From Natronogracilivirga saccharolytica (lineage in GTDB: Bacteria; Bacteroidota; Rhodothermia; Balneolales; Natronogracilivirgulaceae): 64,000 bases of DNA. Numbering within the stretch: position 1 is the stretch's first letter; every line of letters starts with the position of its first letter. The translations under genes and the position numbers were made by a program. The stretch spans positions 1 through 64,000 of the forward strand of contig NZ_JAFIDN010000005.1 in the NCBI RefSeq assembly GCF_017921895.1, read 5' to 3'. The notes under the pieces were generated by a model. The model saw only the letters and a list, made by a program, of their open reading frames with translations, had not been told where the DNA came from and did not search any database. Below are positions 17,662 through 62,805 of the stretch, piece by piece.

Positions 17662-20607
17662 ATGACTACTTCTTACCAGTTTTGCACCCGTGTCCGCGCT
17701 GCCGGACACAGTGCCGCTGCCCTTCCGGCACTCCTGAAAACGGCATTTCTGATCGTTGCCTTCTTTGTCCTGCCACCGCTTGTATTTCCGCACGGTGCCA
17801 TTGCCGCAGTTACGATTTCTGAAACCGGCACAGCGGGCTATGAGGTGGGCGTGCCGGCAATGGAAGCTGATGAACCGGCACCATCCTCCTCGCTTTCATA
17901 CGTCTGCGACGGCGCCTTCCTGCTTCCCGGCGTTGTATGCGAGCTGACCCTTTCGGTCACCGATGCCGCCAATCTTCAGTATGCCGGCCTGGAACTGGAC
18001 TATGATCCCGAACGGTTCGATTTTGAGCAGATTCTGCCCGGCGATTTGTTCGGTGCCGATGCTGTTGTCTTCGCCCGGCCTCTGCCGGACGGCTCGCTCG
18101 GCGCCTCGGTCAGCAGCACATCCGGCGAGCAGAGCGGCTCCGGAAGCCTGCTGCATCTGCAGTTCCGTATTCGCGACGGCGCAGATGCAGGAACGGCCGG
18201 TTTTGCTGTAAATGATATTGAATTTACTGACAGGGATGCCGTTCCGCTGGAGATTGCCGCTCCCGATCCAGTGGATATCGACATTCCGCCCTATCTGGCC
18301 GATGCCGGGCTGACAGCCCCCGGTCCGGTCACCATTGCACGCGGATCCGAACAGCTGTTCCGGTTCCGGCTTGCGGCATCCGGTATCACAGAAGAGGATA
18401 TTTCTGCCAGCGACCGGCTGGAGGCGGAGTTTGGGATCATCGCCAGCGACGCCTCGCTTCCGGATGCACCTGCCCCGGAGGCATGGGATGCGGCCGAATG
18501 GCTGCCGCTCACCCTTACCGAATTTTCGGACGGACATTTCCGCTTTGAAACCCTCTTCCCGATCGATCAGCCTGTCGGAAGCTGGCTGGTACTGGGGCGT
18601 TTTCAGCTGGATGATCAGCCGGAGTTGTACGCCGCTTACGGCAGTGACGGCGGCGGCATCTGGGACGGAGATCAGTTTACGGCCCCGGAGGTCACGGTCA
18701 CAACGCCCCGCGTCACCATTGCCGAATGGACCTTTGACGGCGAGCACTGGTCAGCTGACACCGGTCTCTATGCCAACCTGGATCCCGACTCGCCTGCAGT
18801 TGCAGCCCTGCACGGAGCACGATTTTCCGGCTGGACCGGCGGCAACACCGGCCGGGCTCCAAACTCCAACCAGTGGCATGTGGAGCAGAACAACGGCAGC
18901 GACAATAACGGGGGTACCGGTGACAACGGTGATAACGGCGGGACCGAAGACAACGGTGGCTCCGATGGCGGCAGCGATTCCGATGCCAACGGTGATTCCG
19001 GTGATAACGGTGGCGGATCCGACAACGGTACGGTATCCGGAGACCATCACCACAAATACTGGTCGGCCAGCCTCACCACGCAGGGACACGACCAGCTTGC
19101 CCTTCGGTTCTACATGAGCGGATCCGGTACAGGTCCGCGCGATTTCCGGCTTTATTTCCAGACGGATAACTCTGAAGGTGAATCCGGCAACGGCAGCGGG
19201 TCCGGCTCGCCCACCGAATGGACTCCTGTACCCGGCGGCGATATCCAGGTCGGCACTTCGTGGTCTGCATTTGACATTCCGCTTCCTGCAGACGCCTCTG
19301 ATGCCGGCCGGCTTAACCTGCGCTGGGTGCGCATCGACAGCACATCCATCAACGGGGATGTCATAGGCACTTCCGGCACCAACCGGATCGATGATATCCG
19401 GATAACAGGCGTCCCCCTTGAGCAGGAAGAAATGACCGTCTGGCCGGGCAATACCCGTGGTGAAGGCACCGTCTCCGAAGCCGACGTAATTAACCTTGCT
19501 CTGTACTGGATGGCGACCGGTCCGGCCCGGGTTCCGCAAAGCATTGAATGGGCACCGCAGCCGGTGACCCGATGGCTGCCCGCCCCCGTGGGACATGCCG
19601 ACACCAATGGCGACGGCCGTATCGATTACCGCGATCTTCTGGCCATCGGACGCAATTTCGGAGAAACAGCAGAAACGGGTGTCCAGCCAAAAGCCCTCAC
19701 CGACGCGGCAGAACAGCAAAAAACCGGTGATAATACCGCGCTTGCCGCATTCCATCTTCCCGGACTTTCCAAAAATGAAACCGTGCGTCTGGTTCTTTCG
19801 GCGCAAGATTTCAGCGAGCTGCTCGGACTCAGTGCCCGGTTTTCCATATCCGGAATAGATGCCGCGGACTGGGAGCTGCTCGATGTCCGGCCGGGTGACT
19901 GGGCCGAAAGCTGGTCGGATGCCTCCCGCCTGATCACCTTTCACCATGGCCGCTCACCGGCATCATTGTCAGCCAACCGGCACAAGCTTGCTCACTCGCC
20001 TGATGCGGATATCTCTGCCGGAACAGATTTGCATTCGTCACAATCCGGACGGGTGTATCTGACTGATGAAAGCCAAAGCAGCGTATCAGGTATTCCGGCC
20101 GGCTGGTCTTCGGCCTGGGCGCACAAGGGAATGGGCCGTCCGTCGTCACCATCAGAATCCGGGCTTGCCGTAATTGAGTTGCGGGCATTGTCCGACTGGA
20201 ATCAGGCACCGGTTCTTTCACTTGACCGCGCTTCCTTCACTACGGGTTCGGACGGCTTGCAGCAGCCCGCCCGCGGTGACTGGAAATTCCGGAAAGACGG
20301 CCGCGGGGTATTTACTGATCCGGATCCCGGAATACAGCTTCCGCAGGAAACCCGGCTGCATGCCAACTACCCGAATCCGTTCAATCCGGTCACTGCCGTT
20401 CCCTTTGACCTGCATCAGCCGGGACATGTGGCGATCACCGTTTATGACGCGCTCGGGCGCCGGGTGGATACCCTTATGGATGCCCGTATGGAGCCGGGTC
20501 GTCATGAAATTTCATGGGATGCCGGCAGGCTGGCCAGCGGCGTGTACCTGATCCGCATGGAGACCGGAACGTTGCAGCAAGTCCGGACCATGATGCTCGT
20601 TAAATAG
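17662..20607 (+). CDS. Secreted cohesin- and dockerin-domain protein with T9SS sorting domain
   Basis: A 981-residue protein. After a signal-like hydrophobic segment (about 20-50), residues 76-206 form a cohesin-type beta domain (LQYAGLELDYDPERFDFEQI). Residues 406-456 are an Asn/Gly/Asp-rich linker; 470-590 resemble a jelly-roll module. Residues 603-670 look like a dockerin, with calcium-loop sequence DTNGDGRIDYRDLLAIGRNF. Another beta domain follows, and 896-981 is a type A T9SS domain with NYPNPFNPVTAVPFDLHQPG and ending RTMMLVK. The ATG at 17662 (MTTSYQF) is preferred to 17629. The protein is probably exported and attached to the cell surface; a binding partner or enzyme activity is not evident. 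Confidence 0.85.
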   Translation: MTTSYQFCTRVRAAGHSAAALPALLKTAFLIVAFFVLPPLVFPHGAIAAVTISETGTAGYEVGVPAMEADEPAPSSSLSYVCDGAFLLPGVVCELTLSVTDAANLQYAGLELDYDPERFDFEQILPGDLFGADAVVFARPLPDGSLGASVSSTSGEQSGSGSLLHLQFRIRDGADAGTAGFAVNDIEFTDRDAVPLEIAAPDPVDIDIPPYLADAGLTAPGPVTIARGSEQLFRFRLAASGITEEDISASDRLEAEFGIIASDASLPDAPAPEAWDAAEWLPLTLTEFSDGHFRFETLFPIDQPVGSWLVLGRFQLDDQPELYAAYGSDGGGIWDGDQFTAPEVTVTTPRVTIAEWTFDGEHWSADTGLYANLDPDSPAVAALHGARFSGWTGGNTGRAPNSNQWHVEQNNGSDNNGGTGDNGDNGGTEDNGGSDGGSDSDANGDSGDNGGGSDNGTVSGDHHHKYWSASLTTQGHDQLALRFYMSGSGTGPRDFRLYFQTDNSEGESGNGSGSGSPTEWTPVPGGDIQVGTSWSAFDIPLPADASDAGRLNLRWVRIDSTSINGDVIGTSGTNRIDDIRITGVPLEQEEMTVWPGNTRGEGTVSEADVINLALYWMATGPARVPQSIEWAPQPVTRWLPAPVGHADTNGDGRIDYRDLLAIGRNFGETAETGVQPKALTDAAEQQKTGDNTALAAFHLPGLSKNETVRLVLSAQDFSELLGLSARFSISGIDAADWELLDVRPGDWAESWSDASRLITFHHGRSPASLSANRHKLAHSPDADISAGTDLHSSQSGRVYLTDESQSSVSGIPAGWSSAWAHKGMGRPSSPSESGLAVIELRALSDWNQAPVLSLDRASFTTGSDGLQQPARGDWKFRKDGRGVFTDPDPGIQLPQETRLHANYPNPFNPVTAVPFDLHQPGHVAITVYDALGRRVDTLMDARMEPGRHEISWDAGRLASGVYLIRMETGTLQQVRTMMLVK

Positions 20608-20661
20608 CCTGCTGAGCATGATTTGCTATAAGTTCGGAGTACGGTGCTCGTGAAGTAGCCT
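20594..20661 (+). repeat. Duplicated gene 3' end around a stop codon
   Basis: The last codons of the cohesin gene, TGCTCGTTAAATAGCCT (20594-20610, stop at 20605-20607), recur 51 bp later as TGCTCGTGAAGTAGCCT (20645-20661). A degenerate intermediate copy may lie between them. It resembles the stop-anchored repeats at 23628, 40034 and 62706. Confidence 0.5.
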
Positions 20662-20743
20662 CTTGTTACAGAGCCGCTGAAAGACCGGAGCCTGCCCCGT
20701 TCAGAAAGCGGTGGTGAAGCAGGCGATCTGTCACACAGTTGCG

Positions 20744-20786
20744 GAGAGTATGCCGGACCATTGCGTGTCCGGCTGCTCTCTTTAAA
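20744..20786. terminator. Bidirectional hairpin between convergent genes
   Basis: Stem GAGAG + GCCGGAC (20744-20758) pairs with GTCCGGC + CTCTC (20767-20780), with a small internal mismatch and an 8-base loop, followed by TTTAAAA. It lies between the cohesin gene and the histidine kinase gene, which converge here, and fits an intrinsic terminator. Confidence 0.7.
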
Positions 20787-22353
20787 ACCGGATATTCACT
20801 GTCAGGCCACCGCCATTGCTTTCAAAACTGATATCTCCCCGCAATTGCTGAACCAGTCCGTGAATGATCGTAGTGCCGAAAGAAACCGGATTATAAAGTT
20901 GATCCACATTATCAACTCCAACACCATCATCACTGATCTCGATCTCGTTTTTACCGTTAGCCCGCGAAAGCCGGACAAATATGGTTCCTTCCCCGTGGTT
21001 CCTGAAAGCGTGCCTGGCAGCGTTTGTGATCAGCTCATTAATCAGCAGAGTGCAGGGCACCGAGTGATTGAAATCCAGAATGATTTCCTCCAGATCCGTT
21101 TCGACCCTGATCCCCCTGGATTCCAGTCCGAACGAATTGGAAAGCAAGTCAACTATTCTGCTGATCAGCTTGGCGGCATTGATTTCCACAAAATCCGTCT
21201 GCTCATAGACGATTTCATGAACCAGCGCCATGGACCGGATGCGGTTTTCCGTGTCGCGAAAGATCGAACGGGCCTCTTCATTTGCAATATATTCAGACTG
21301 AAGCGAAAGCAGGCTCGAGATGATAGCCATATTGTTCTTTACCCGGTGATGGATTTCACTGAGGAGCACATCCTTTTCTCTGAGCGACCGCGCCAGTTTT
21401 TTCTGGGTTTCTTTCAGTTCGGTGATATTTCGTCCGATTCCGACAATTCCGATGATCTCTCCTTCCCGGTTGCGTATCGGTGATACTTTGGACTGGTATT
21501 TCACCATGCCGTCCGGGGCGGGTGTTTCCCATTCATAGACCACCACCTCGCCGGAGAGCGCCTTGCGATAGCATGTTTCGTACCACTGTCCCTCCTTTTC
21601 ACCAACGATGTCAGCGGCTCTTTTGCCAATAAAATCTTCCGGCTCCATGTTTATCCGTTTCATCCAGGTGCCATAGACACCCGTATGCCGCAAATCGGTG
21701 TCCATCGTAAAGATTACGTCATCCGAAGATTCGATGAGCAGCCGGAATTTCTCTTCACTCTGCTGCAGCTTGCCGACGTATTCCTTGCCGCGATGATGAT
21801 CATTAAGGACTTTACCAATGATGATGGTAATAAGCGGATAAATTACCACAAAACTGATCGCCACATTCTGAAACACATCGTCAGCGATGTTTTCTGGCAG
21901 AGCATGGACATAGAACGCCATCATAAGGTGCACCATCATGCTGTATACAAACAGTTGCGGCAGGGTTATCTGACCGTTATCGTTATTCTGTTTCACAACA
22001 TGGAACACCCAGCCCAGAACAAAAGCGGTCAGTGTTGTCATCATACCCATGATCACGCCGTCACCCCCGAGCCAGATGCGGAACAGGATCGTCATGATTA
22101 CGCTGATGGCACCGGTCAGTGGACCAAAAAATATGGTGGCAATTCCCACCACAATGGTGCGTCCGTCAAATATCACCCCCTCGACGAAGGTGAAGGGATA
22201 CGACATGCCCACTACGGCAATGGCCCCGAAAAGCACTCCCTGAGCCACCCGCCCTTTCCAAGATGCAGCATCAAACCGGTCGTTGAGCAGGTTGGAGACC
22301 AGCAGCAGGACACCAAGAAGTGAAAGATTGTAGATGATCTCCGGAACAATCAT
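20782..22353 (-). CDS. Sensor histidine kinase (5TM-LYT, PAS, HisKA_2/HWE type)
   Basis: A 523-residue protein. Residues 1-185 hold five to six membrane helices with features of 5TM receptor-LYT sensors (FVEGVIFDGRTIVVGIATIF). A PAS domain with PAC ending (about 205-325, IGIVGIGRNITELKETQ) follows. Near 335, LSEIHHRVKNNMAIISSLLS is the phospho-acceptor region of the HisKA_2 class. An HATPase_c domain (NELITNAARHAF, DDGVGV) ends the protein. The 9 codons upstream of ATG 22353 start with TTG and are less likely. No response regulator is adjacent, so its partner is unknown. The ligand of the membrane part is unknown. Confidence 0.9.
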   Translation of the reverse strand: MIVPEIIYNLSLLGVLLLVSNLLNDRFDAASWKGRVAQGVLFGAIAVVGMSYPFTFVEGVIFDGRTIVVGIATIFFGPLTGAISVIMTILFRIWLGGDGVIMGMMTTLTAFVLGWVFHVVKQNNDNGQITLPQLFVYSMMVHLMMAFYVHALPENIADDVFQNVAISFVVIYPLITIIIGKVLNDHHRGKEYVGKLQQSEEKFRLLIESSDDVIFTMDTDLRHTGVYGTWMKRINMEPEDFIGKRAADIVGEKEGQWYETCYRKALSGEVVVYEWETPAPDGMVKYQSKVSPIRNREGEIIGIVGIGRNITELKETQKKLARSLREKDVLLSEIHHRVKNNMAIISSLLSLQSEYIANEEARSIFRDTENRIRSMALVHEIVYEQTDFVEINAAKLISRIVDLLSNSFGLESRGIRVETDLEEIILDFNHSVPCTLLINELITNAARHAFRNHGEGTIFVRLSRANGKNEIEISDDGVGVDNVDQLYNPVSFGTTIIHGLVQQLRGDISFESNGGGLTVNIRF

Positions 22354-22495
22354 ATCCGTCAATGCCAAAAAATTTTGCAATTAATAACCGTCTGTACCGG
22401 CACGCTGCCATATTCATACCACTAATACAGGTGGGACAGCTCCGTTGACCATGCCGGTCAGATCATATACATCTGCAGGCCAGCCATACCCTCCG

Positions 22496-22529
22496 CCTCA
22501 GATCATGCACAGCCTCAGATCATGCACAG
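22496..22529. repeat. 17-bp tandem duplication with nearby hairpin
   Basis: CCTCAGATCATGCACAG occurs twice head to tail (22496-22512, 22513-22529). The second copy begins a possible stem, ATGCACAGC, that pairs with GCTGTGCAT about 14 bases later and is followed by TTTCCCC. It lies in the 300-bp gap between the divergent kinase and acyltransferase genes. Confidence 0.6.
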
Positions 22530-22656
22530 CCGCCGGTCATCGCATGCTGTGCATTTTCCCCTCAATTGTACGTTTTTTAGCATTGGAATCCAAAGTTTTG
22601 TAAACTTGATTAATTCGATTTTACATGTCAATCCTAACCAACCGGAGTCACCATAA

Positions 22657-23637
22657 GTGAAAAAAGAACGCCCCGCATTCATCAAGGACAAGGTATCTCC
22701 CGTTTTTTACCGGATGTTCTACTGGTATTCACTTACCCTCTTCCGGCGCCGTTTCCGCAGGGTCTGGATTGACGATTCTGTGCATCCGCCGGGTGGTACA
22801 TCCGTGCTGTTTGTGGGCACGCACAACTCCTGGTGGGACGGGATGATTCCGCTGCTCATGAACGAGGCCTCTTTCGGACTGGATGCGCGTGCCATCATGG
22901 ATGAGCAGCAGCTGCGCCGGTATCCGTTCTTTCGTTATCTCGGTGTCTACTCCATCAACCGTGACTATCCGCTCAGAGCCATGAAAAGCCTTGAATATAC
23001 CGTACGGCTGCTCAACAACAGCACAGAAGAGCATCCTGTCGGTATCTGGGCCTATCCGGAAGGAAAACTGGTCAACCCGCACAAGGCCGTCACCCTGGAA
23101 AGCGGCCTGGCTTGGCTGTCACGTCATATTGACCCGGAAAAATGCGAAATCATACCGTTCACCTCGCATATGCATACGATGAGAGGTGACAAGCCTGAAC
23201 TTTTTATCAAGCTCGGCAACCCCATTGGTCCCAAAATTTACCGCTCGGGTCATGTACTTGCGCATGTCACCTATACTCTGGAGGAGCTGCGCAAATCATG
23301 CCGTGAAACAAGCGGAAACTTCGACGAGGACGGGTATCCGCAGGGCGGGTTCCGTCTGCTGCTCGGACGTGAGCCGAAAGCGCCCGAAGCACCGCTGCCG
23401 GATCCGGATGAGATGACCGGAGACGGGCAGGATGCCATAAAATCGGATGAAAGCGACAGTTCCGGGCAAAAAGAGACCACAACCGGCAGTGAAAGTGATG
23501 CCGCTACCGGCGAGAGCGGAGATAAGCGGCCGGAGCCGAAAGGAATGGACGATCCGTCACCAGCCGGCAGCGCTGCTGACAAGGCCGAGCCTTCCGGACT
23601 TGATGACAGCACCAAAGGTAATCAGGGTTCGCGGTAA
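22657..23637 (+). CDS. Lysophospholipid acyltransferase-family protein (PlsC-like)
   Basis: A 326-residue protein with the 1-acylglycerol-phosphate acyltransferase motifs HNSWWD (HxxxxD, about residue 55) and IWAYPEGKL (about 128). Residues 235-326 are a low-complexity, Ser/Gly/Asp/Glu-rich tail. The start codon is GTG, with GGAG 11 bases upstream. The gene converges with a CrtC-like gene whose stop lies 60 bp away. PlsC-like genes occur in carotenoid clusters of Bacteroidota, where they acylate a carotenoid or its sugar, so such a role is plausible; a phospholipid role is the alternative. Its stop codon lies in the first unit of the 19-20-bp tandem repeat. Confidence 0.85.
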   Translation: MKKERPAFIKDKVSPVFYRMFYWYSLTLFRRRFRRVWIDDSVHPPGGTSVLFVGTHNSWWDGMIPLLMNEASFGLDARAIMDEQQLRRYPFFRYLGVYSINRDYPLRAMKSLEYTVRLLNNSTEEHPVGIWAYPEGKLVNPHKAVTLESGLAWLSRHIDPEKCEIIPFTSHMHTMRGDKPELFIKLGNPIGPKIYRSGHVLAHVTYTLEELRKSCRETSGNFDEDGYPQGGFRLLLGREPKAPEAPLPDPDEMTGDGQDAIKSDESDSSGQKETTTGSESDAATGESGDKRPEPKGMDDPSPAGSAADKAEPSGLDDSTKGNQGSR

Positions 23638-23723
23638 TTCGCCAGGTCCGCAGTGATTCACCAGGTTCAGCGGTATTTCACAAGATCCGCGGTGATTCAC
23701 CAGGTCCAGCGGTACAGCCGCGG
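23628..23723. repeat. 19-20-bp tandem repeat x5 spanning two convergent gene ends
   Basis: Units start at 23628, 23647, 23666, 23686 and 23705; a good copy is TCCGCGGTGATTCACCAGG. The first unit holds the stop of the acyltransferase gene (23635-23637), and the fourth and fifth hold the last codons and stop (23697-23699) of the crtC-like gene. Units diverge by a few bases. Confidence 0.8.
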
Positions 23724-25022
23724 CGATTTCTGCACCCAGTGGGGCTTGCTGTCCACATACCGCAGCCTCATGTGCACCAGCGGCCAGAAAATCCGGCGGT
23801 GGATACGGCCCGGACGGATATATTCTCCGATGCCTGTTCCGCTGACTTTTTCACCAATGGACGGATGTGTCAGGTGCGCTTCGGTGACATAACGGCAGTA
23901 AAACGGCCCGGAATCGGATACCTTTTTGTGCCGAATGACCACACCGAGCTCCTTGTCCTGAAACCGAAGCTCGCGTCCCGGTCGCAGCAGAAATCCGTTG
24001 AAGCGCCGCCGTCTGATGTTTTTCAGGTCGAGCGTGTACAGCAGCCGCCGGTTGTCGGAGCTGATCAGCCAGGCCCGGTAATCGGCGCCTGATTTTTTGT
24101 TCATCACATAGTAGACCAGCGTCGCCTCCTCAAAATGGACCCGCCCCCAGTACCAGTCGCGGAAGCTCTGGCGCATTGGCTCGGTACCCAGATTGTGATC
24201 GTGATAACCGATGCCGTCAAAAATCATTTCGCGTGAGACAATGCCGTTTTTCAGCAGGTTCATCCGGCACTGCATCTTCGCCCTGGGAAAGACCAGGTTC
24301 CAGAGATGCGTTTCACCATCGGGTCCGGTACCGTCCCGGGCAATCTGATCTGCATCAGCCGCATTTGAGTTGCTCCTATTCGGTGATGACCGTCGTCCGC
24401 CGGATTTCTTCGCCGTTCCGAACATCCTCTCATTCGGGACCATCCCGGTGAACGTAATGATTCCCTTGAGCTCATCCCCCGAAGGCAGCCGTTCGTTGAT
24501 GCGCAGGTCATAACCGGAAAAATCTTCGCTTCCGTGCTTTTCACGGACATCGCGGCGAAGGGAATTGCCGCCGATGGTCACCTCCGGCTTATCTTCGGAA
24601 AAGGAGCACTGATCCGGCGGATATTCACTCAGGCTGTAAAAGATGGGCTCCCCCTTGTGGTAAACCGAAATGCTGATGGCGGGATGCTGCCCGGCCAGCG
24701 CACCGGCCGCCTCAGCTGCTTTATTTTCCGGTGCGTTCTCTGCTGTGTCGGCCAGGGTATTTCCTGCTGCACCGGCGTCCGTATTGCCGCCAGTCCCACT
24801 GTCCGGTCCATCCCCCTTCATTCCGGATCCGTCTCCGGATTTATGACGAAACCGGTCCGCCTCCCGGACATACCTCGTGGAAAACGGGCAGCCGTCATAG
24901 TAAATAATCACAATCTGGTACTCCCCGTCATCGGAAATGCCGTCAAAATACCACCACTCATAGCTGCCAGGGCGGGTTTTCGGATGCCGCGCATCCCGGT
25001 TGCTGTCGGATATCAGCTGCAT
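23697..25022 (-). CDS. crtC: CrtC-like carotenoid 1,2-hydratase
   Basis: A 441-residue protein with the CrtC / hydroxyneurosporene synthase signature near the N-terminus (GSYEWWYFDGISDDG) and later DHNLGTEPMRQSFRDWYWGR. The family hydrates the terminal double bond of acyclic carotenoids. Two hydrophilic inserts break the conserved fold: a Gly/Ala/Asn-rich run about residues 65-115 and a Ser/Asn-rich run about 215-245; neither is usual. I prefer ATG 25022; the frame extends to a TTG at 25064 that lies inside a strong hairpin. It converges with an acyltransferase gene, which supports a carotenoid modification role, but no phytoene synthase or desaturase is in the window. Confidence 0.8.
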   Translation of the reverse strand: MQLISDSNRDARHPKTRPGSYEWWYFDGISDDGEYQIVIIYYDGCPFSTRYVREADRFRHKSGDGSGMKGDGPDSGTGGNTDAGAAGNTLADTAENAPENKAAEAAGALAGQHPAISISVYHKGEPIFYSLSEYPPDQCSFSEDKPEVTIGGNSLRRDVREKHGSEDFSGYDLRINERLPSGDELKGIITFTGMVPNERMFGTAKKSGGRRSSPNRSNSNAADADQIARDGTGPDGETHLWNLVFPRAKMQCRMNLLKNGIVSREMIFDGIGYHDHNLGTEPMRQSFRDWYWGRVHFEEATLVYYVMNKKSGADYRAWLISSDNRRLLYTLDLKNIRRRRFNGFLLRPGRELRFQDKELGVVIRHKKVSDSGPFYCRYVTEAHLTHPSIGEKVSGTGIGEYIRPGRIHRRIFWPLVHMRLRYVDSKPHWVQKSPRLYRWTW

Positions 25023-25038
25023 CGCCGGAAAATAATTT

Positions 25039-25074
25039 CTTTGGGGTTTTGAGTCACTTTTCAAAACCCCAAAG
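25039..25074 (-). terminator. Perfect 14-bp hairpin between SGNH gene and crtC
   Basis: CTTTGGGGTTTTGA (25039-25052) and its exact complement TCAAAACCCCAAAG (25061-25074) enclose an 8-base loop. On the minus strand it lies 24 bases after the stop of the SGNH gene and 17 bases before the crtC ATG, followed by AAATTATTTT. It may end the SGNH transcript or act as a leader structure for crtC. Confidence 0.65.
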
Positions 25075-25097
25075 ATAATGAATCAGCAAGTGGCAAC

Positions 25098-26486
25098 CTA
25101 CGGGAATCGCACACCTTCGTAGGCACTCACGTTAACGGGCGAGACGGTAGCGCCATAGGTTTCATTGATCTCTTCGATCACCATGTTGGTCACCATCGCG
25201 GCACCGCGCGGAGTCAGATGTATGCCGTCGAGTGAAAACACGCCGCCCTCGACAAATTCGGTGGTCAGCAGGATGGCATCGTACACAACCCCTTCCTGCG
25301 CCGCGGCTTCCAGTTCCGGATTGACATCCACAAAAACGAGACCGAGCTGCGATGCCGCGCCTTCAAGAATGTCATTGAAGGTGTCGGTCGCCAGCCGGAC
25401 ATTGCCGGCCTGCTCCGCGGTCAGTGTATACTGATCGGGAATGGGCGTGCTGCTGCCCCAACCGGCGCCTTCCGGCAGCGGCTGAAGGGAATCCTGAGGA
25501 ACCGAAAGCAAAATATGCTCACCCTGCTCGGCCATCCGGAAACCGGCCGGAGCGTCGCCGTCCTCAATCACAAATCCGTTGGCTCCTTCCTGGAAATCAG
25601 GGATAAGCTGCTCGGGAACACCCTCGGCCTCATATCCGGCCCGGAGCATCTGCGCCTGCTCGGCGGTCAGCGCCAGTCCGTCCCAGGGAACCGTATTGAA
25701 AAACGGAATGGTGGTCACATCCGGGATGCTCAGCACCGCACCCAGCGCCCCTTCACCGGCCAGTGTGCCGGCCAGCGCTTCGATGCTGCCCTCAAACACA
25801 TTCACCGGGGTAATGTCGTTGTCGCTCACCTGCGCAGGATCGCCCATCTCCTCAAGGCCCTGACCGGTACCGCCTGCCGTGGCATAGCCCAGCACATCGT
25901 TGTTGCCGGCCCAGAGTGTGAAGAACGTCGGCTCAGCCATCAGTGCATCGCCGAGAACCGTCGCCATGGGATCACTTTTAAAGCGGGCAAAAAATGGGTT
26001 GTAATTGCCTTCACCGGCTTCCGTGTTGCCGTATCCCTCCGCAACCAGATGGAAACTGCGCGCCCCGGGGACACCGACGTTGTGAAACGGTCCGGTCTGC
26101 TGCCGGCTGAAAATATCCTGTCCGCTTTCTGCGGCCGGAGCCGGAGACAGCGTCGGAGAGCCGTCCGGGCCGGTCGTAACCTGCAACACGAGCCGTGCTT
26201 CACCTTCGGCATTGGATCCGACACCGGGATTGACCAGCGGCTGGAGGAACTCCCCTCCGCCCGCCTGCTGCATCTGTCCGGCCAGAATGTTGGGAAAGGA
26301 GTTGATCTGCCCTTCCCGGTGCAGCGCATTATCGGAATAACCGGCCGTCAGCGAGTTGCCCACGGCCACATAGCTGGAAAAATCGGCCTGACCCGAGTCT
26401 GCCGTACGTTCACTGATGCTCGGGTCGCACTGGCTGAGCACCAGCATCGCCATCAGAAAAGAGAAAAGATGTGTTAACCGCTTCAT
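25098..26486 (-). CDS. SGNH/GDSL-type hydrolase lipoprotein
   Basis: A 462-residue protein with a lipoprotein signal (MKRLTHLFSFLMAMLVLSQC). VAVGNSLTAGYSD (about 35-47) is the GDSL block with the nucleophile serine; LWAGNNDVLG (about 185) matches the GxND block; DGIHLTPRGAAM near the C-terminus gives the Asp-His pair. These enzymes are esterases or lipases; the substrate is unknown. The ATG at 26486 starts the lipoprotein signal; one at 26498 is also possible. It follows the FadL-like gene at 114 bp on the same strand, with a terminator-like hairpin between, so joint action on lipids is a reasonable but unproven idea. Confidence 0.87.
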   Translation of the reverse strand: MKRLTHLFSFLMAMLVLSQCDPSISERTADSGQADFSSYVAVGNSLTAGYSDNALHREGQINSFPNILAGQMQQAGGGEFLQPLVNPGVGSNAEGEARLVLQVTTGPDGSPTLSPAPAAESGQDIFSRQQTGPFHNVGVPGARSFHLVAEGYGNTEAGEGNYNPFFARFKSDPMATVLGDALMAEPTFFTLWAGNNDVLGYATAGGTGQGLEEMGDPAQVSDNDITPVNVFEGSIEALAGTLAGEGALGAVLSIPDVTTIPFFNTVPWDGLALTAEQAQMLRAGYEAEGVPEQLIPDFQEGANGFVIEDGDAPAGFRMAEQGEHILLSVPQDSLQPLPEGAGWGSSTPIPDQYTLTAEQAGNVRLATDTFNDILEGAASQLGLVFVDVNPELEAAAQEGVVYDAILLTTEFVEGGVFSLDGIHLTPRGAAMVTNMVIEEINETYGATVSPVNVSAYEGVRFP

Positions 26487-26577
26487 AATGGAATTCATTT
26501 GAAAGTTTAAAATGGTGGCTTGATCCGGTCGGTTGCTGAACCGGCCGTCGTCCGGCACATTGCCGGGCCGCATCCGG

Positions 26578-26601
26578 AAAAACACCGGTTCCGGGACCGG
26601 T
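26578..26601 (-). terminator. Intrinsic terminator after fadL-like gene
   Basis: On the minus strand ACCGGT-CCCGGA-ACCGGT is followed by GTTTTT, starting in the stop codon of the fadL-like gene. The 6-bp stem is short but GC-rich. Confidence 0.55.
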
Positions 26602-27869
26602 CAGAATTTGTGATACAGGGATATGCCCGGCAGCCAGGCCCGTGTCTTGAACTCGCCTACCGGCACGGTGCCGAAGGTGCCCGCATCGATTGTATCCTCC
26701 AGGGACTGCTCCCGGGGACTGGATGTAATAAACAGAAGCGAGGCATTGACGCCCAGATCGGGAGTAAAGGCGTAGCCCACTCCTGCCGACATTCCGATCC
26801 GGTCGAGATCCGGTGTCTCGGGAGTTATGAAGCCCTCATCCACCGGGGACGGGTCAAAGTATCCGCCGAGACGCAGCTGCAGCGCTTCGGTCGCATCAAA
26901 TTCGCCGCCCAGACGGAAGATCCAGCGGTCATTGAAATTCCGGGGCTCGGTAATGTTCTGCAGCGCAGGTGTATTTTCCTCGAAAGCAAAATCCAGGCTC
27001 TCATAGGCACTCCAGAACGTCAGGTTGGCATCGATACCCACGCGCAGACGCTCGGTCGGGGTCAGCCCCACGCCGATGTTAAGCACGGCCGGCAGCGGCA
27101 GGGAAGCATCAAACCGGTTGCCTTCCGGAAAATTGCCCTGCAGCGACTGCGGAATGGTAAAATCGGCATCTCCGCCTTCCACTTCCATTTCAATCTCCGA
27201 GCGGTAGGAAACACCAAGCGAAACCAGGTCGGTCACATCCGCATAAATACCGGCGTTGAAGCCGATCGCGGTTGTCGATCCGTCAAGCTCGACAATTCCG
27301 GTATGTCCGTCCATGTCGCTGATGGGCAGATCGCGCTGCAGATTCACCATCCCGATGGCATAAATGAATCCGGCACCGACACCGATGTTGTCGGTAATCG
27401 CATAGCTGAGCGTGGGCTGCAGGTAAATGGATGTCAGGGAAATCTCGCGCAGCAGCGTGCGGTACTTCCACCCCTCTTCCCACTTCAGAGCGTTTCCGTA
27501 GGGAGTGTACACGGCAAAACCCGCCTTCAGGTTGTCCACCGGCGTGTCATAGCTGGCATAGATGCTGAACGGCGTTCGCACCCTGGAGTCGGTGTTGGCC
27601 TGATAGGTGGACGGCGCCGGCGCCCGGTAGGCGGTGCTGATGAACGTGGCGTTGGAACCCGCCATGACGGCATTTCCGTCCAGTGCGGAGAGTCCGCCCG
27701 GATTCATGGCTATGGTTGCAATGTCGAGCGGCATGCCGGTACCGACATGTCCCATCCCGATCTGTCTCTGTCCCAGCAGGTTGAGCTGATATCCGCCTGC
27801 CATTGCTGCACTTGCTGCAAGACATACGGCCAGCAGGCCTGCCGTCAAAACGGTAACAATATTTTTCAT
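26601..27869 (-). CDS. Outer-membrane transporter, OmpP1/FadL/TodX family
   Basis: A 422-residue protein with signal peptide (cleavage after about residue 24, AAMAGGYQLN), then GQRQIGMGHVGTGMP and IATIAMNPGGLSAL, the N-terminal hatch signature of FadL porins. Alternating beta-strand patterns fill the rest, and it ends in aromatic F (LYHKF), as outer-membrane barrels do. FadL proteins take up long-chain fatty acids or other hydrophobic compounds. The ATG at 27869 begins the signal peptide; the upstream in-frame residues to 27956 are untypical. It is probably transcribed ahead of the SGNH gene. Confidence 0.92.
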   Translation of the reverse strand: MKNIVTVLTAGLLAVCLAASAAMAGGYQLNLLGQRQIGMGHVGTGMPLDIATIAMNPGGLSALDGNAVMAGSNATFISTAYRAPAPSTYQANTDSRVRTPFSIYASYDTPVDNLKAGFAVYTPYGNALKWEEGWKYRTLLREISLTSIYLQPTLSYAITDNIGVGAGFIYAIGMVNLQRDLPISDMDGHTGIVELDGSTTAIGFNAGIYADVTDLVSLGVSYRSEIEMEVEGGDADFTIPQSLQGNFPEGNRFDASLPLPAVLNIGVGLTPTERLRVGIDANLTFWSAYESLDFAFEENTPALQNITEPRNFNDRWIFRLGGEFDATEALQLRLGGYFDPSPVDEGFITPETPDLDRIGMSAGVGYAFTPDLGVNASLLFITSSPREQSLEDTIDAGTFGTVPVGEFKTRAWLPGISLYHKF

Positions 27870-28084
27870 GAGTACTATCCGATTAGTGGCTTTTCGGTTG
27901 TCAATAATTCCTGATGAAAGCACGCATAACACTCCCGGATGCGCTGCACGAGGCATCGGGCAACAGGAGTATCAGCGCCGGCATAAACCCCATTTGTTCG
28001 TCAGTCCGCCCCATGCGGACCGTCCGGCTGCTTCAACAGACTGACCTAATTTAAAATTTTGAATCGGATATGCCAATTTTTGTT

Positions 28085-28783
28085 TCATGATGCTTCCGGA
28101 TGTTTCCGGACGATCTGCAGCCCGTCGCGCACCGGCAGCAGCACATTTTCGACCCGCGCATCAACCGAAATGAGCCGGTTCATCCGGTCGACGGCCTTAC
28201 CCTTGCGGTCGTCCGCCTCGCCGGCCGCATCGGCCCAGGCCTTGCCGCCCCAGAATGCATTGTCGATGACCATGACCCCGCCGGGCCGCAGCACCGGCAT
28301 CAGAACATCGTAATAGACCGGATAGCTTTCCTTGTCGGCATCGAGGAAAATGAGATCGGGTTTCGGTCCGGACTCCAGGATTTTCTGTTCGCGGATGGCA
28401 TCCAGCGCCATGCCGGTCAGCAGCTCAATGCGCGGCCCGGACGGCTGCTCTTTGTGAAACCGGTCGAAAAACCGCCGGGCGATGGCGGAATACTTGTCGT
28501 TGCCCTCGCAGGTGATGATGCGTCCGCCCGATGTCATTCCCGATGCGATCTGAAGCGTACCGTAGCCGGTGAAGGTGCCGATTTCCAGGACAAACCGGGC
28601 GGCTGTGAGCCCGGCCATCATCCGTAGCAGCGCGCCGACAAGCGGACCGCTGAGCATATCGTCATACCGGAGTTCGGCGGCCGTCGCCCGGCGCACATCC
28701 CGCAGCAGTGGTGATTCGGGCGATGAGTTTTTCACGGCATAGCTTTCTGCCTGTTGCAGGAAGGTTCGGGAGTCGTCTGGCAT
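28085..28783 (-). CDS. SAM-dependent O-methyltransferase (caffeoyl-CoA OMT-like)
   Basis: A 232-residue class I methyltransferase. VLEIGTFTGYGTLQIA (about 66-81) is the SAM-binding loop, DLIFLDADKESYPVYYD (about 145) the metal/substrate region and GGVMVIDNAFWGG the family's DN motif. The substrate is unknown; such enzymes methylate catechols and similar hydroxyl groups using a divalent metal. It lies 87 bp downstream of the STN gene on the same strand and could be the last gene of that sigma/anti-sigma group. Confidence 0.9.
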   Translation of the reverse strand: MPDDSRTFLQQAESYAVKNSSPESPLLRDVRRATAAELRYDDMLSGPLVGALLRMMAGLTAARFVLEIGTFTGYGTLQIASGMTSGGRIITCEGNDKYSAIARRFFDRFHKEQPSGPRIELLTGMALDAIREQKILESGPKPDLIFLDADKESYPVYYDVLMPVLRPGGVMVIDNAFWGGKAWADAAGEADDRKGKAVDRMNRLISVDARVENVLLPVRDGLQIVRKHPEAS

Positions 28784-28870
28784 GATGGAATTTTTGTTAT
28801 TTATATTGGCTTTTGAATGTGCTGCTGCTCAGGTGCCCTGCCGGGCAACCGGTGCTGTCCGGAAACAAAA

Positions 28871-29356
28871 TCACTCCGGCAACGACCGGCGAAGAATGAT
28901 TTCACTCAACGGTACAGGTTCGTCGAATGCAGCCGAAAAGGGTAACACAAGAGGCTGCATAGCTTCCGACCGCAGTGCATCCACCCTGCTGCCGGCCCCG
29001 GCCGGAACCTCCGCCAGCGGCCGGATATGCTGGCGCAGCGAATGCCTGATCACATAAATACCCGTCCGGATGCGCCTTGCCTCGAGCCCTTCCGGTTCCA
29101 GCAGCTCATCAAGTATATCGCGGAGCGGCTTCTCCCGGAAAACCGCCCGCACCATCACCCCGTCGGTCAGCTCCGATTCATAAAGAAAATCCGTTCCGGT
29201 TTTTTCGGATATGAGGTACAGCGCACGCTCGAGCGGCTCATCGTGAAATTCGAATGAGTAGACGGGATCACCGGATTGCATCACCGGCAGCATGGTCATA
29301 ACAGCAATGAGAAGTGCGCACATGGCACGGCAAGGTAATGAATGGTTAACTGACAC
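28871..29356 (-). CDS. Stand-alone STN-domain protein
   Basis: A 161-residue secreted protein. After a signal peptide (CALLIAVMTMLPVMQSG), residues 32-105 form a secretin/TonB short N-terminal domain (FHDEPLERALYLISEKTGTD, then RDILDELLEPEGLEARRI). Normally this domain heads a TonB-dependent receptor whose STN contacts a FecR anti-sigma factor. Here a stop comes 55 residues after the domain and no plug or barrel follows in any frame before the next gene. It lies just downstream of the fecR-like and sigma genes. The start is GTG 29356; ATG 29323 is the alternative. It may be a remnant or a dedicated signalling subunit. Confidence 0.8.
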   Translation of the reverse strand: MSVNHSLPCRAMCALLIAVMTMLPVMQSGDPVYSFEFHDEPLERALYLISEKTGTDFLYESELTDGVMVRAVFREKPLRDILDELLEPEGLEARRIRTGIYVIRHSLRQHIRPLAEVPAGAGSRVDALRSEAMQPLVLPFSAAFDEPVPLSEIILRRSLPE

Positions 29357-29400
29357 CGGCTGGACCGGCTGACCGGCTCACCGGCTTCAATATCACACTG

Positions 29401-30384
29401 TCAATATAACCGAATCCCGTCATCCGACCAACTGTAGCGGCAGTCGGTAACATGGCAGATGGAGGTGACAATCGACTCAAGATCGTCGGGTGACGGCAGA
29501 TAAAGCGTCAGACGGCGCTCCGACAGCGCTTCGTCTTCTATCTCGATTTCCGTATTGTAGCGCCGCTCCAGTTCGCCGGCCACTTCGCTCAGGGACAGTC
29601 CGGAGAAGTAGAAACCCTTGTCACGCCAGGCCAGCGCACGGCTGGTGTCTGCCGGCTCGGGCTTGTGCGGCGCATCCGCCTCGCTGTCCACCACGCTCGA
29701 GTGTCCGGGCTCGAGCTGCACCGCCTCTGCAGGCTGCATCAGTGAAGCCAGGCTGACCTCACCGTCGATGAGCGTCAGTTCGGTGCGCATTTGCGGACCG
29801 GAATCCCATGCGCGGACATTGAACCGGGTGCCTGTGACGGCGATACTGGCGTTGTGCGTGGTGACGGTAAAACTTTTTTCATCCGGCTGAACCTCGAAAT
29901 AGGCCTCTCCGTGCAGATTCAGCTCACGATGGCCGTTCCATGGCCTGCGATACCAGCTGATCGAAGATCCGCTGTTGAGTTCCACCTGCACTCCCTCTTC
30001 CCACTGCCAGCTTGTAAAGCTGCCGCGAGGCGCCTCGACGGTAACCGGCACAAAAAGGTACCAGTAGAAGAATCCTGCCAGCAGCAGTGCCGCCACTGCT
30101 GCGACGGCGGAGTAAAGCGATACGAGCGTCCCCGTCGGCCTTTTCTTGTCCGGCCTGCCGGCCCGTCCGACAGCTCCGGTTTTCTTTAGAGAAGCATCGG
30201 AGCGAATTCGTTTCTGCAGCCGGCGCCACTCTCTCTCTGCATCGGGGTATTCGGACGCATTGCCGGGACGTGTTACACGTTCGGGTCTGTTCCGGCCGGA
30301 CACCTCCCAGATGCGCGCAACATGCTCACGATCCGCATCACGGAACTTCTCAAAAATACTTGTATCCGGCTTCTTCCTGCTCAT
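29401..30384 (-). CDS. FecR-family anti-sigma factor
   Basis: A 327-residue protein. The N-terminal cytoplasmic part (1-85) precedes one membrane helix (about 100-120, SAVAAVAALLLAGFFYWYLF), then the periplasmic FecR domain (about 122-225, EAPRGSFTSWQWEEGVQVEL and HGEAYFEVQPDEKSFTVTTH) and a C-terminal DUF4974 domain (about 255-325, FSGLSLSEVAGELERRYNTE). The protein would hold the sigma factor at 30544 and release it on a signal from an STN-bearing partner. The frame extends upstream to a TTG at 30462, but ATG 30384 is more likely. It lies between the sigma and STN genes. Confidence 0.92.
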   Translation of the reverse strand: MSRKKPDTSIFEKFRDADREHVARIWEVSGRNRPERVTRPGNASEYPDAEREWRRLQKRIRSDASLKKTGAVGRAGRPDKKRPTGTLVSLYSAVAAVAALLLAGFFYWYLFVPVTVEAPRGSFTSWQWEEGVQVELNSGSSISWYRRPWNGHRELNLHGEAYFEVQPDEKSFTVTTHNASIAVTGTRFNVRAWDSGPQMRTELTLIDGEVSLASLMQPAEAVQLEPGHSSVVDSEADAPHKPEPADTSRALAWRDKGFYFSGLSLSEVAGELERRYNTEIEIEDEALSERRLTLYLPSPDDLESIVTSICHVTDCRYSWSDDGIRLY

Positions 30385-30543
30385 ATTATCTTTTTTCTGC
30401 GATTTCTGCTGTTTTCTGCTGCCTGACAGCCCGTTTTCCGGCCATCCGGCAATCCGGCTCAATCTCTGTGTTGTATCATTTTCTATCTGAAATACGGCCG
30501 GACAGCCGCATGTGACTACCCGAACCAGCCATGTTAAGCCATT

Positions 30544-31110
30544 TTAATCTTTCTTTTCCCACTCCTTCAGCCGGTCGCGCAGAGTACCCAGGGCGCTGAC
30601 AATGTGATTGTTTACGGTTCGCGGGGCACAATCCATCACTTTTGCGATTTCATGGTGGTCAAGTCCTTCGAACCGGCTGAGCTCGAACGCTTCACGCTGC
30701 CGCACCGGCAGCGATTCAATCCATTCGGTGATTTTTTTCATGAGTTCGCCGGATTCACTGCCGGCGTCATCCTCACCGGCCGGGATCAGCTCCTCAGCCG
30801 GAACATCGGCCGGACCCAGTTCATCGAGCCGCACCGACCGATGCATGCGAAGATAGTTGATGCCACGGTTGCGGGTCATCCGGTAGAGCAGCGCCTTGAG
30901 CGAGCGGTTTTCATCGACCCGGTCACGGATTTCCCACAAATGGGCGTAAACATCCTGAAGAATATCGGCCGCTGCATCCGGATCCCTGACAATGCTGTCC
31001 GCATAACGGATCAGCTGGTCATAGGAATCTGTAAAAATCTCACGAAACGCCGATTCATCAGAATTGCGCAGTCTTAGGGCCCATTCGTGATACTGCGTAG
31101 ATGCGGTCAT
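30544..31110 (-). CDS. ECF-type RNA polymerase sigma factor (FecI-like)
   Basis: A 188-residue sigma-70 family protein. Region 2 (about 20-90) contains AADILQDVYAHLWEIRDRVD, and region 4 (about 125-180) contains LPVRQREAFELSRFEGLDHH and APRTVNNHIVSALGTLRDRL. It matches the Bacteroidota sigma factors that pair with FecR. It is the first gene of sigma, fecR, STN, O-methyltransferase on the minus strand. Its regulon likely includes its own operon. Confidence 0.93.
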   Translation of the reverse strand: MTASTQYHEWALRLRNSDESAFREIFTDSYDQLIRYADSIVRDPDAAADILQDVYAHLWEIRDRVDENRSLKALLYRMTRNRGINYLRMHRSVRLDELGPADVPAEELIPAGEDDAGSESGELMKKITEWIESLPVRQREAFELSRFEGLDHHEIAKVMDCAPRTVNNHIVSALGTLRDRLKEWEKKD

Positions 31111-34047: not shown

Positions 34048-34059
34048 TAAGCAATACCC

Positions 34060-35421: not shown

Positions 35422-35441
35422 GCTCGTGCAGCACTGAGACG
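35410..35441 (+). repeat. 16-bp tandem duplication on a stop codon
   Basis: GTGCAGCGCTGAGCTC (35410-35425, containing the TGA stop of the preceding gene) is followed directly by GTGCAGCACTGAGACG (35426-35441). Confidence 0.7.
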
Positions 35442-35460
35442 ATACCAGCCTCACTTTCGG

Positions 35461-59137: not shown

Positions 59138-59345
59138 TGTGTTTTAACTGCGTTGACATCGCCATTTTGTTTGTTTATTTTCAGTTACTTAGGAATAAAT
59201 CAAACACAAACAAGGTCTCGCATCGGCCTCCTTTTAACTGTATCAAGATACTGCAACCGGAAGCCAGCGCCCGCTTTTTACGGTCTGAATGATCAGCATT
59301 CAGCTGATCTCCGGGTTTTTTGCGGGACCAAACTCGGGATTCAGC

Positions 59346-62300
59346 ATGCATACCTTTCTACGGAAAAAAGACCATATCCATCCAGCCACATCAGCCCTGA
59401 TAATTCTTGCCGCCGCAGGGCTTTTTTTCCTGTCTGCAGCAACAGCCGGAGCGCAGCAGCACATTCAGCCGGATGAACCGGCACCGGACTGTGACGCAAC
59501 GGTTGCAGAAGGGGAGTCTATCCAGAACGCCATTGATGCCGCATCCATTTTTGACCGGATCTGCCTGGAGGACGGTGTATATCAGGAAAGACTGTTTCTT
59601 TCTGACAGCCTTACTCTTGCCTCTGCAGACGGTGCATCTCCTGTTCTTGACGGAAACTCTGATTATGATACCGGTCTGACTATTTCCGGCAATCATGTGA
59701 CGGTGAGCGGACTGGAAATCCGGAACTTCACTGATGAAGGTATCTATGTCAGCAGAAATGAGGAAATCGTGATACGGGATAATGTCGTTGAAAACAACGG
59801 AAGCGGTATCCGTTTCAACCGCACCGACGGTGCCCTGATAACCAACAACGTGGTCAGCGAAAACGAGGAAGCCGGCATTTATCACAGTGACCTGCGCGCT
59901 ACGGGCAGCAATTTCACGGCCACCCACAACACCGTCACAGACAACGGTCAGCACGGAATTGACTTCCGCCGGTCATCCGATGTGCGCGTCGACTCCAATT
60001 ATGTCAGCGGCAACTCCCGGGGAATCCACCTTTCCGAGAACTCCGGTGTACAGGTCATCGGCAATGATGTCACCGGACGCGAAATCGGCACCGGTATCTG
60101 GTCACGGGAGCTGAACGACGTAACTATTTCGCAAAACACCGTCTCAGACCAGCAAAGCGGCATACTGGTATCTGCCGGCAGCGACAACATATTAATTGAA
60201 GATAACGACGTCACCGCCGATGATTATGACCTGACGGTATCCGCCTCAACCAATGCCACTGTGCAAAACAACAGCTTTACCACAGGCATGGTACTCAGCG
60301 GCAGGGTAAGTGATTTCGATCCGGATTATTTTCTGCAAGATATCTCCGGGAACACCATCAACGGTGCGCCCCTGGTCTATATCCGCGGGGATGAGAATAC
60401 CGACATCGATCCGGATGCTGCTCAGATTATCGCCGTGAATGTGTCCGACCTTGAAATCTCCGGATACACTTTTGATCAGGTTGCTTCAGGAATCCAGCTT
60501 GCGCACGGACAAAACGTAACCGTCACCGACATCCATGTGACGGATCATACCACCTCCACCCGCGGCGGAATCACACTGACCGAAACCTTTGACTCCAAAG
60601 TGGACAGCAGTTCGGTCACCGGCGGCGGTGAGGGCATTCTCGTTGAAGGCGGTGCACGGAATGTGATCAGTAACAACGAGGCAACCGGCAATGCAACTAT
60701 GGGAATCCTGATTGAGAATACAGGTACCGGCCATTTAGTGCAGGATAATGTTGCCACTCAGGCTGAAGAGGACGGCATTCATGTCCGCAGAAGCATGGAC
60801 AGCGTCACGGTTGCCGGGAATCATACCCACAATAACCAGCGTGACGGCATCCATGTCCGCTGGAACACCGAAAATACGACCCTGGAAGACAATATTATCG
60901 AAAACAACACGCGAAACGGTGTTTATGACGATGCTTCAAACACCGTCCTCCGTCAAAACAGTATTACCGGAAACAGTACCGGTGTCACTTCTTCCGGGGA
61001 CCTGGTTGACGCAAGAGAGAACTGGTGGGGTGCGTCTGACGGGCCGTCCGGTTTCGTCAGTGATCCCGAAACCGGCACTTCTTCTGACGGCAGCGGCGAT
61101 CAGGTTCATGCAAACATCCGGTTTGACCCCTGGCTGGAAACGGATCCGCATGGTGACGATGATGATGACCCGGACGACCCGAACGGCGAAGAAGACTTTG
61201 TGATCAGCGAATGCCGCGAGCTCAGCGAACCGGGGGAATATGAGATCAGCGGTGATCTTGAACCGGCCGAAGAGCATGATGACTGCATCACGATAACGGC
61301 CGGGGATGTTGAGATTGACGGAAACGACGCCACAATTTCAAGTTCCGGCAGCGGTACGGCCGTGCTGGCTGCCGATGCCGACAACCTTGCCGTTAAGAAT
61401 CTCACCATTCAAGAGTTCCGTTACGGCATCCAGTTTGAAAATGTCAGCGGCGTTCATATTGAAAATCTGACTGCCGAAACCATCGGCCAGGCCGGCGTCT
61501 GGCTCACCAACTCCACCGAAGGCCTGGTAACCGGCAGCAGCTTTATCGATAACCGGGATGGTGTGGTCGTCCGTGAAGGTGGCTCCGGAAACGTCATAGA
61601 AGACAATACCGCAGAGAATAACCGGCGCTACGGTTTCATATTCCGGGATACCGAAGAAAACCTCTTCCGGAACAACACAGCTGAAAATGTTGAAGACTAT
61701 GCATTCCGTGTGATCAGCGACGGTCATAACAACGTTCTTGAAGAAAACACGGCCATCGGATCCGGTGATGACAGCGAAACCGGCTTTGATATCCGCGGTG
61801 ACGGAAATGTGCTTGAGGACAATCATGCTGAAGGCAATGACCGGGAAGGGTTCCGCATTTCCGGCAGCGACAACCAGATCATTGGCAATACGGTGGCAGA
61901 CAACAACCGTGACGGTATCCGGATCGTTGACGGTACCGGAAACCTCGTCGAAAACAACGAAATATCCGGTAGTGGCAATCACGGCCTGAGGCTATGGGCA
62001 GCAAATGACAACACGCTGAAGAACAATGTTGTCACCGGCGGGGACGACAACGCTTTCAGAGCCCACGATGATGCCGAAGGCAATGAAATTTACCGGCTGC
62101 ATCTCGACAATGGTGCCATCCTGAGTACCCATCCGTTGAACTATTCGCTCGACCCGGTCCACGAAGCCCCGGAACCTTCAGATGAACTGCAGTCTCTCGG
62201 CGTTCATTTCGAGGCCATGCAGACCGGTGATGAATACAGCCTGGAGGTTTCCGTCCATTTTGATGATCTGGACATCGATTCCGGGGACCAGGAGCGGCTT

Positions 62301-62726
62301 TCTGTCCGTATTCGTGATGATGATCAGGACGCTTGGGTTTCAGCCGGCGAGGCGGACATTGACACAGAAAACGAAACCGTTACAATCACAACTGCCGAAG
62401 AGGGAGTATTCGGACTGTTTCTGGATGAAACAGGGACTCAGGCGGATCAGGACGAGCAGCCTGAACAGTTTGCACTTTCTCAGAACTACCCCAATCCTTT
62501 CAATCCCGAAACGCAGATTGCCTTTGAACTGCCGGAGCAGGCACATGTCACACTGGAGGTTTACAACTCACTCGGGGAGAAAGTCACCACACTGGTTAAC
62601 GAAACCCGTGAAGCCGGCAGGTTTGAAGTCGAATTCGATGCATCACATCTTTCAAGCGGAACCTATATCTATCGTATCCGTGCCGGTGATTTCACCAAAT
62701 CCCGAACCATGATGCTCGTCAAGTAA
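59346..62726 (+). CDS. Secreted right-handed parallel beta-helix protein with T9SS sorting domain
   Basis: A 1,126-residue protein. After the signal peptide (HPATSALIILAAAGLFFLSA), many parallel beta-helix (PbH1/NosD-like) repeats with N/D/G-rich turns (for example NNGSGIRFNRTDGALITNNV) run from about residue 60 to 560. A short Asp-rich linker (about 598-615) joins a second beta-helix (about 640-900), and then a beta-sandwich domain. Residues 1041-1126 form a T9SS type A domain (NYPNPFNPETQIAFELPEQA) ending RTMMLVK. Such proteins bind or cleave polysaccharides, but no catalytic motif is seen. The ATG at 59346 is the likely start. The stop falls in a 20-bp tandem repeat. Confidence 0.88.
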   Translation: MHTFLRKKDHIHPATSALIILAAAGLFFLSAATAGAQQHIQPDEPAPDCDATVAEGESIQNAIDAASIFDRICLEDGVYQERLFLSDSLTLASADGASPVLDGNSDYDTGLTISGNHVTVSGLEIRNFTDEGIYVSRNEEIVIRDNVVENNGSGIRFNRTDGALITNNVVSENEEAGIYHSDLRATGSNFTATHNTVTDNGQHGIDFRRSSDVRVDSNYVSGNSRGIHLSENSGVQVIGNDVTGREIGTGIWSRELNDVTISQNTVSDQQSGILVSAGSDNILIEDNDVTADDYDLTVSASTNATVQNNSFTTGMVLSGRVSDFDPDYFLQDISGNTINGAPLVYIRGDENTDIDPDAAQIIAVNVSDLEISGYTFDQVASGIQLAHGQNVTVTDIHVTDHTTSTRGGITLTETFDSKVDSSSVTGGGEGILVEGGARNVISNNEATGNATMGILIENTGTGHLVQDNVATQAEEDGIHVRRSMDSVTVAGNHTHNNQRDGIHVRWNTENTTLEDNIIENNTRNGVYDDASNTVLRQNSITGNSTGVTSSGDLVDARENWWGASDGPSGFVSDPETGTSSDGSGDQVHANIRFDPWLETDPHGDDDDDPDDPNGEEDFVISECRELSEPGEYEISGDLEPAEEHDDCITITAGDVEIDGNDATISSSGSGTAVLAADADNLAVKNLTIQEFRYGIQFENVSGVHIENLTAETIGQAGVWLTNSTEGLVTGSSFIDNRDGVVVREGGSGNVIEDNTAENNRRYGFIFRDTEENLFRNNTAENVEDYAFRVISDGHNNVLEENTAIGSGDDSETGFDIRGDGNVLEDNHAEGNDREGFRISGSDNQIIGNTVADNNRDGIRIVDGTGNLVENNEISGSGNHGLRLWAANDNTLKNNVVTGGDDNAFRAHDDAEGNEIYRLHLDNGAILSTHPLNYSLDPVHEAPEPSDELQSLGVHFEAMQTGDEYSLEVSVHFDDLDIDSGDQERLSVRIRDDDQDAWVSAGEADIDTENETVTITTAEEGVFGLFLDETGTQADQDEQPEQFALSQNYPNPFNPETQIAFELPEQAHVTLEVYNSLGEKVTTLVNETREAGRFEVEFDASHLSSGTYIYRIRAGDFTKSRTMMLVK

Positions 62727-62805
62727 CCATGATGCTCGTAAAGCAACCATGATGGTCATAAAGCAACCATGATGGTCATAAAGCAACCATGATGCTCGTC
62801 ACGTA
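62706..62805 (+). repeat. 20-bp tandem repeat x5 on a gene's last codons
   Basis: ACCATGATGCTCGTCAAGTA begins at 62706 and includes the last residues (TMMLVK) and stop (62724-62726). Four further units start at 62726, 62746, 62766 and 62786, differing at a few bases. Units 3 and 4 are identical. Confidence 0.93.

Follow-up and report, generated by a model that had tools for sequence, protein, structure and literature searches.

Several unrelated genes in one stretch of the genome of a soda-lake bacterium (a Balneolales MAG) run into short repeats whose first copy contains the stop codon. This raises the question of whether the stop codon anchors such repeats or whether ordinary duplications accumulate where genes end. 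The stretch, called the window here (G000:C5:1-64000), comprises 64,000 nucleotides and was analyzed together with 100 further stretches of 20 kb each, giving 2.06 Mb out of a genome of 3.75 Mb in 49 contigs. In these 2.06 Mb, 1,744 genes were called with our own hexamer model. Arrays were detected with TRF (score of at least 40 or at least 50) and by comparison with shuffled sequences. The nearest relatives available for comparison were other genera; the GH3 protein of the window matched Balneolales MAGs with 78 to 83% identity.

Repeat arrays at gene ends of the window

The earlier note listed six gene ends with stop-anchored repeats. Five of them (acyltransferase/crtC, the 453-aa gene, mazG, GH3/leuS, and the beta-helix gene) carry such repeats, with shuffle p values of 0.0005 to 0.005; the cohesin gene is followed by a lone diverged copy and has no tandem array. 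The positions are as follows.

7546-7572, minus strand: weak 13-bp repeat, 2.1 copies (TRF score, 40; p = 0.04), touching the stop of ORF 7568-8110; absent from the earlier note
20592-20661, plus strand: end region of the cohesin (T9SS-tail) gene (17629-20607), a single diverged, nonadjacent copy at a lag of 51
23626-23714, minus strand: acyltransferase/crtC array, 39-bp unit (19 + 20 bp), 2.3 copies (TRF score, 129)
35410-35441, plus strand: repeat at the stop of the 453-aa gene, 16-bp direct repeat GTGCAGCGCTGAGCTC, 2 copies (shuffle p = 0.005)
35464-35491, minus strand: repeat at the mazG stop, 10-bp unit GCGGCAATTA, 2.8 copies (TRF score, 42; shuffle p = 0.0035)
40035-40135, minus strand: GH3/leuS array, 17-bp unit, about 6 degenerate copies (TRF scores, 59 and 60)
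62705-62799, plus strand: array at the end of the beta-helix gene, 20-bp unit AACCATGATGCTCGTCAAGT, 4.8 copies (TRF score, 148)

The beta-helix gene (59289-62726; T9SS-tail, Por_Secre_tail domain) encodes a protein ending in RTMMLVK-stop. The first copy of its array consists of the terminal codons and the stop (offset 19 within this unit), and copies 2 to 4 contain CAA where copy 1 has TAA. Comparison of this array with plasmids yielded no match. Two arrays are located between convergent genes and contain both stops: the array at 23626-23714 lies between the acyltransferase gene (22657-23637, plus) and a crtC-like gene (23697-25022, minus), and the array at 40035-40135 fills the 85 bp separating GH3 (38554-40041, plus) from leuS (40127-42853, minus), with a shuffle p of 0.0005 at either end. 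The mazG gene (35480-36283, minus) and the 453-aa gene (34060-35421, plus) are likewise convergent; the 16-bp pair of the latter was read from the sequence and falls under the TRF threshold. The 453-aa gene had been labeled amidotransferase-like, a putative assignment for which searches of Pfam and NCBIfam returned no match. The copy at the cohesin gene end gave a p value of 0.002 in a 100-bp stretch and 0.18 in a 70-bp stretch. At a p value of <0.01, repeats were detected at 9 of 48 stops and 4 of 48 starts in the window. TRF and the shuffles together revealed adjacent head-to-tail copies above chance, as in minisatellites/VNTRs.

Distribution of arrays around stop and start codons

Noncoding arrays (TRF score of at least 50) reach a density of 28 per 100 kb of intergenic DNA in this genome, compared to 17 in a genome of the same family and 13 in each of two genomes of the same order; 31 kb of intergenic DNA from E. 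coli K-12 contained no array at this score. In the first 1.26 Mb (TRF score of at least 40), 17 arrays overlapped stops and 7 overlapped starts; the corresponding numbers in two shuffled versions of the sequence were 0 and 1. The window is an outlier, with 6 stop-overlapping arrays on 48 stops versus 18 on 1,541 in the remaining sample (Fisher p = 5e-5); it was chosen for its repeats, and arrays cluster (the variance is twice the mean per 20 kb, and stretches L036 and L168 resemble the window), both of which bear on this status.

The earlier note called for a genome-wide comparison of stops, starts, and intergenic DNA. Arrays overlapped stops more often than starts, at 24:6 overall (p = 0.001) and 18:5 outside the window (p = 0.01), start counts being less exact than stop counts since a simple gene caller sets the starts. 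Outside the window, uniform intergenic placement predicts 9.5 to 12.1 stop overlaps, depending on whether 21 to 30 bp of intrusion into the gene is allowed, so that the 18 seen represent a 1.5- to 2-fold excess (p = 0.006 to 0.06); the same placement predicts 10 to 12 start overlaps, and 5 were seen. Array coverage in the 2.06 Mb (TRF score of at least 40) reaches 1.4% at the stop codon itself, 2.0% over 0 to 10 bp, 2.6 to 2.9% at +10 to +75, and 2.5% at +75 to +100, so that the DNA immediately after the stop is covered at least as densely as the stop. Into the gene, coverage decays within about 30 bp and is 0.4 to 0.5% at 15 to 60 bp inside genes. Upstream of starts, it is 0.5 to 1.0% within 50 bp and climbs to 2.3% at 150 to 200 bp. 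These results indicate that arrays favor the 3' side of genes over the 5' side and that any extra excess at the stop itself is mild at most. The stop codon as a special anchor of repeats is thus not sharply supported.

What remains is the 1.5- to 2-fold excess, a peak of array edge density at -15 to 0 of the stop (0.76 per kb versus 0.35 to 0.56 at 0 to +60), and the higher coverage of convergent regions (2.8% versus 1.8% and 1.3%). All three would fit a process linked to gene ends, e.g., transcription termination or convergent transcription, that increases the local rate of tandem duplication. We consider such a process improbable, however, because selection against arrays near starts and promoters predicts the same pattern; moreover, the excess, which involves only 24 arrays, weakens to a p value of 0.06 outside the window when 30 bp of intrusion is allowed.

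Of the 25 stop cases sampled, 22 have the stop inside the first unit, compared to 9.7 expected at random phase (p = 5e-7). The named units do have lengths that are mostly not divisible by three, as the earlier note stated, but this does not extend to the 25 stop cases, in which 10, 7, and 8 periods equal 0, 1, and 2 modulo 3, respectively. Repeats within coding DNA have a period of 3n in 106 of 123 cases at a TRF score of at least 40, in 44 of 48 at a score of at least 50, and in all 28 of 28 in a stricter ungapped scan. A stop within the repeat and coding repeats of mostly 3n period are both in keeping with minisatellites/VNTRs.

Probable origin of the crtC and leuS arrays

The crtC-like protein ends in PHWVQKSPRLYRWTW followed by the stop, and the source of the array is the crtC tail TACCGCTGGACCTGGTGA (YRWTW-stop). 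In the window, TACCGCTGAACCTGGTGA and then more decayed copies come after the crtC codons TACCGCTGGACCTGGTGA. In three relatives, the crtC tail ends in PHWVQRSPMMYRWTW (G023), PHWVQRSAMLYRWTW (G026), or PHWVQNSSRLHRRTW (G003), each before the stop; YRWTW-stop is kept in two of them and HRRTW-stop is found in the third. In each, the tail is present as a single copy, the array is absent, and the acyltransferase gene is convergent nearby. One tail copy in three relatives makes a single copy most simply ancestral at crtC, and the array, an acquisition specific to this lineage, most simply expanded out of the conserved crtC end in the direction of the acyltransferase gene. The acyltransferase stop now falls in a decayed copy of the crtC-derived array. 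The acyltransferase (22657-23637) has about 80 additional C-terminal residues compared to its best-matching relatives, whose matches stop near residue 240, and it ends within the crtC-derived array.

The 17-bp units of the second convergent pair start at the leuS end (NFVVK-stop) and extend to the last GH3 codons. The readable GH3 ends of relatives showed no array and were followed by other sequence. GH3 is 495 aa long, versus 489 to 496 aa in most relatives, and in most relatives the leuS homologues align through its final residue (908). G011 and G012 likewise have GH3 and leuS in convergent orientation, about 1.4 to 1.5 kb apart and with a different sequence after GH3; here, the 85-bp array alone lies between them (40042-40126).

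Tandem duplication might start preferentially at last codons in this lineage and spread downstream, with arrays from conserved ends (crtC and leuS) invading convergent neighbors (the acyltransferase gene and GH3) and now supplying their last codons and stop. We regard this generalization as rather doubtful. If it is true, preferential duplication at gene ends would be a route for the turnover of C-terminal tails and stop codons.

Neutral duplication as the probable explanation, its alternatives, and known repeat systems

The best explanation, to which we assign a probability of about 0.8, is that the arrays are ordinary short tandem duplications, tolerated because copies spanning the stop leave the protein unchanged. 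Minisatellite-like duplications would appear throughout intergenic DNA through slippage or unequal recombination and later decay. A duplication spanning the stop, whatever its length, would not affect the upstream protein because the first copy retains the original codons and stop, whereas duplications over starts, or those of a non-3n length within genes, would be purged. Being protein neutral, stop-spanning duplications would therefore accumulate past genes and overrun stops; later copies would drift and shed the stop codon without constraint. Between convergent genes, an array born at one gene end could extend across the end of the neighbor. The stop-to-start ratio of 24:6 and the stop in the first unit are what selection preserving the protein predicts. 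Slippage as the mutational step and neutrality itself are what we infer from this pattern.

The possibility of neutral slippage tolerated only past the stop, raised in the earlier note, is supported by coverage that is flat from +10 to +100 and low both around starts and within genes, by the mostly 3n periods of coding repeats, by the position of the stop in the first unit, and by the free loss of the stop in later copies. Counter to it stand the stop excess, the edge peak at -15 to 0, and the folding of the crtC array, and some added tendency of arrays to begin at gene ends may operate beside it. Full neutrality is not assured, given that stop-overlapping VNTRs of Yersinia pestis vary less than expected (PMC3689786).

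The folding of the crtC array would suit a role of the arrays in terminating transcription or in structuring the 3' UTR. On both strands, folding of the crtC/acyltransferase array is better than that of shuffles (z = -2.8 and -3.6), and its unit includes the near-palindrome GGTGATTCACC. This role is nevertheless very unlikely, because the remaining arrays fold no better than shuffles (z = -0.6, -0.1, 1.4, 0.7, and -0.4) and none of the terminator-like sites in 20501-40500 lies inside an array; the arrays of that region showed no stable hairpin with a trailing T run of the kind that characterizes an intrinsic terminator. Backup termination, also proposed in the earlier note, by which extra copies would be retained since they place stop codons in other frames past the first stop, has next to nothing to recommend it: stop triplets in any frame are more numerous in the next 60 nt at gene ends with arrays (3.9 versus 2.6; p = 0.006) because the copied unit itself holds a stop, but the stop triplet survives intact in 48% of later copies, compared to 62% for the remaining triplets of these arrays (n = 21; p = 0.22), CAA occupies the stop position in beta-helix copies 2 to 4, the distance to the next in-frame stop is not reduced (median, 15.5 codons at gene ends with arrays versus 14 at other genes), and arrays occur as commonly downstream of the stop as over it.

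The idea of an undescribed repeat class defined by stop codons is not supported, since stop-overlapping repeats have been published (PMC3689786, PMC9879509, PMC4679880) and repeats here are no rarer immediately downstream of the stop than over it. Among 88 VNTRs of Y. pestis, 10 overlap stop codons and 6 overlap start codons, units are mostly 7 to 21 bp, VNTRs within ORFs are 3n, and the authors suggested that a copy change across the stop might affect the ORF less (PMC3689786). The arrays described here resemble them in overlapping stops and in being 3n inside ORFs; the Y. pestis VNTRs are polymorphic among strains, whereas these arrays often have diverged copies. Borg tandem repeats begin within gene ends and are 3n in ORFs and mostly non-3n in intergenic DNA (PMC9879509). 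Borg copies are perfect and A-rich, whereas in this bacterial genome most stop arrays have 55 to 94% copy identity; perfect, SNP-free repeats of the Borg type were not found, base identity to copy 1 being mostly 0.55 to 0.94. TAACTGA direct repeats occur in Beggiatoaceae, Cyanobacteria, and some Bacteroidetes, and in 13 sets the repeats run across the stop of the gene upstream (PMC4679880). They share short direct repeats and stop codons in the unit with these arrays but are one fixed heptamer located mostly just before start codons. The heptamer repeat TAACTGATAACTGA was absent from 202 of 202 loci searched. Degenerate TCAGTTA/TAACTGA-like heptad arrays are present near gene ends at L036:2147-2209 and 2679-2793; no exact tandem pair of TAACTGA occurred in the loci searched.

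MIRU elements of Mycobacterium tuberculosis are tandem intergenic units that meet gene ends, with longer units that form one dispersed family, whereas the arrays here each appear to be derived from their own locus. Enrichment of k-mers in intergenic DNA revealed no motif common to the arrays, and the candidate GTRATYAC (GTGATTAC/GTAATCAC) occurred at chance frequency in the window. Other repeats were observed in the sample. A dispersed repeat of about 100 bp (AAACACATGAA, CACACAGG, AGCATGATTA, and GGTCATGATCA) lies in upstream-type intergenic DNA at L057:13489-13694, L006:18353-18578, and approximately 37100-37200 (minus) of the window, is tandem at two places (94 and 99 bp; 2.2 to 2.3 copies), and is perhaps a promoter-linked element. 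A CRISPR-like repeat with the core GTTGTGGTTTGATTCAAAGATGGGATGACCGATATT had about 30 copies in the k-mer counts of L001-L060. An Rfam match to isrN (window 892-1034; 58.9 bits) lies antisense inside an IS3-type transposase gene (140-1303, minus) and probably reflects the transposase sequence, not an sRNA.

The loci are fresh examples of an already described kind, rather decayed and dense, and the striking pattern at gene ends is accounted for without invoking a new element. The crtC locus provides a clear before-and-after example, which suggests that the tail of a convergent neighbor can be replaced by arrays. For the birth and decay of bacterial minisatellites, this genome would serve as a fair model.
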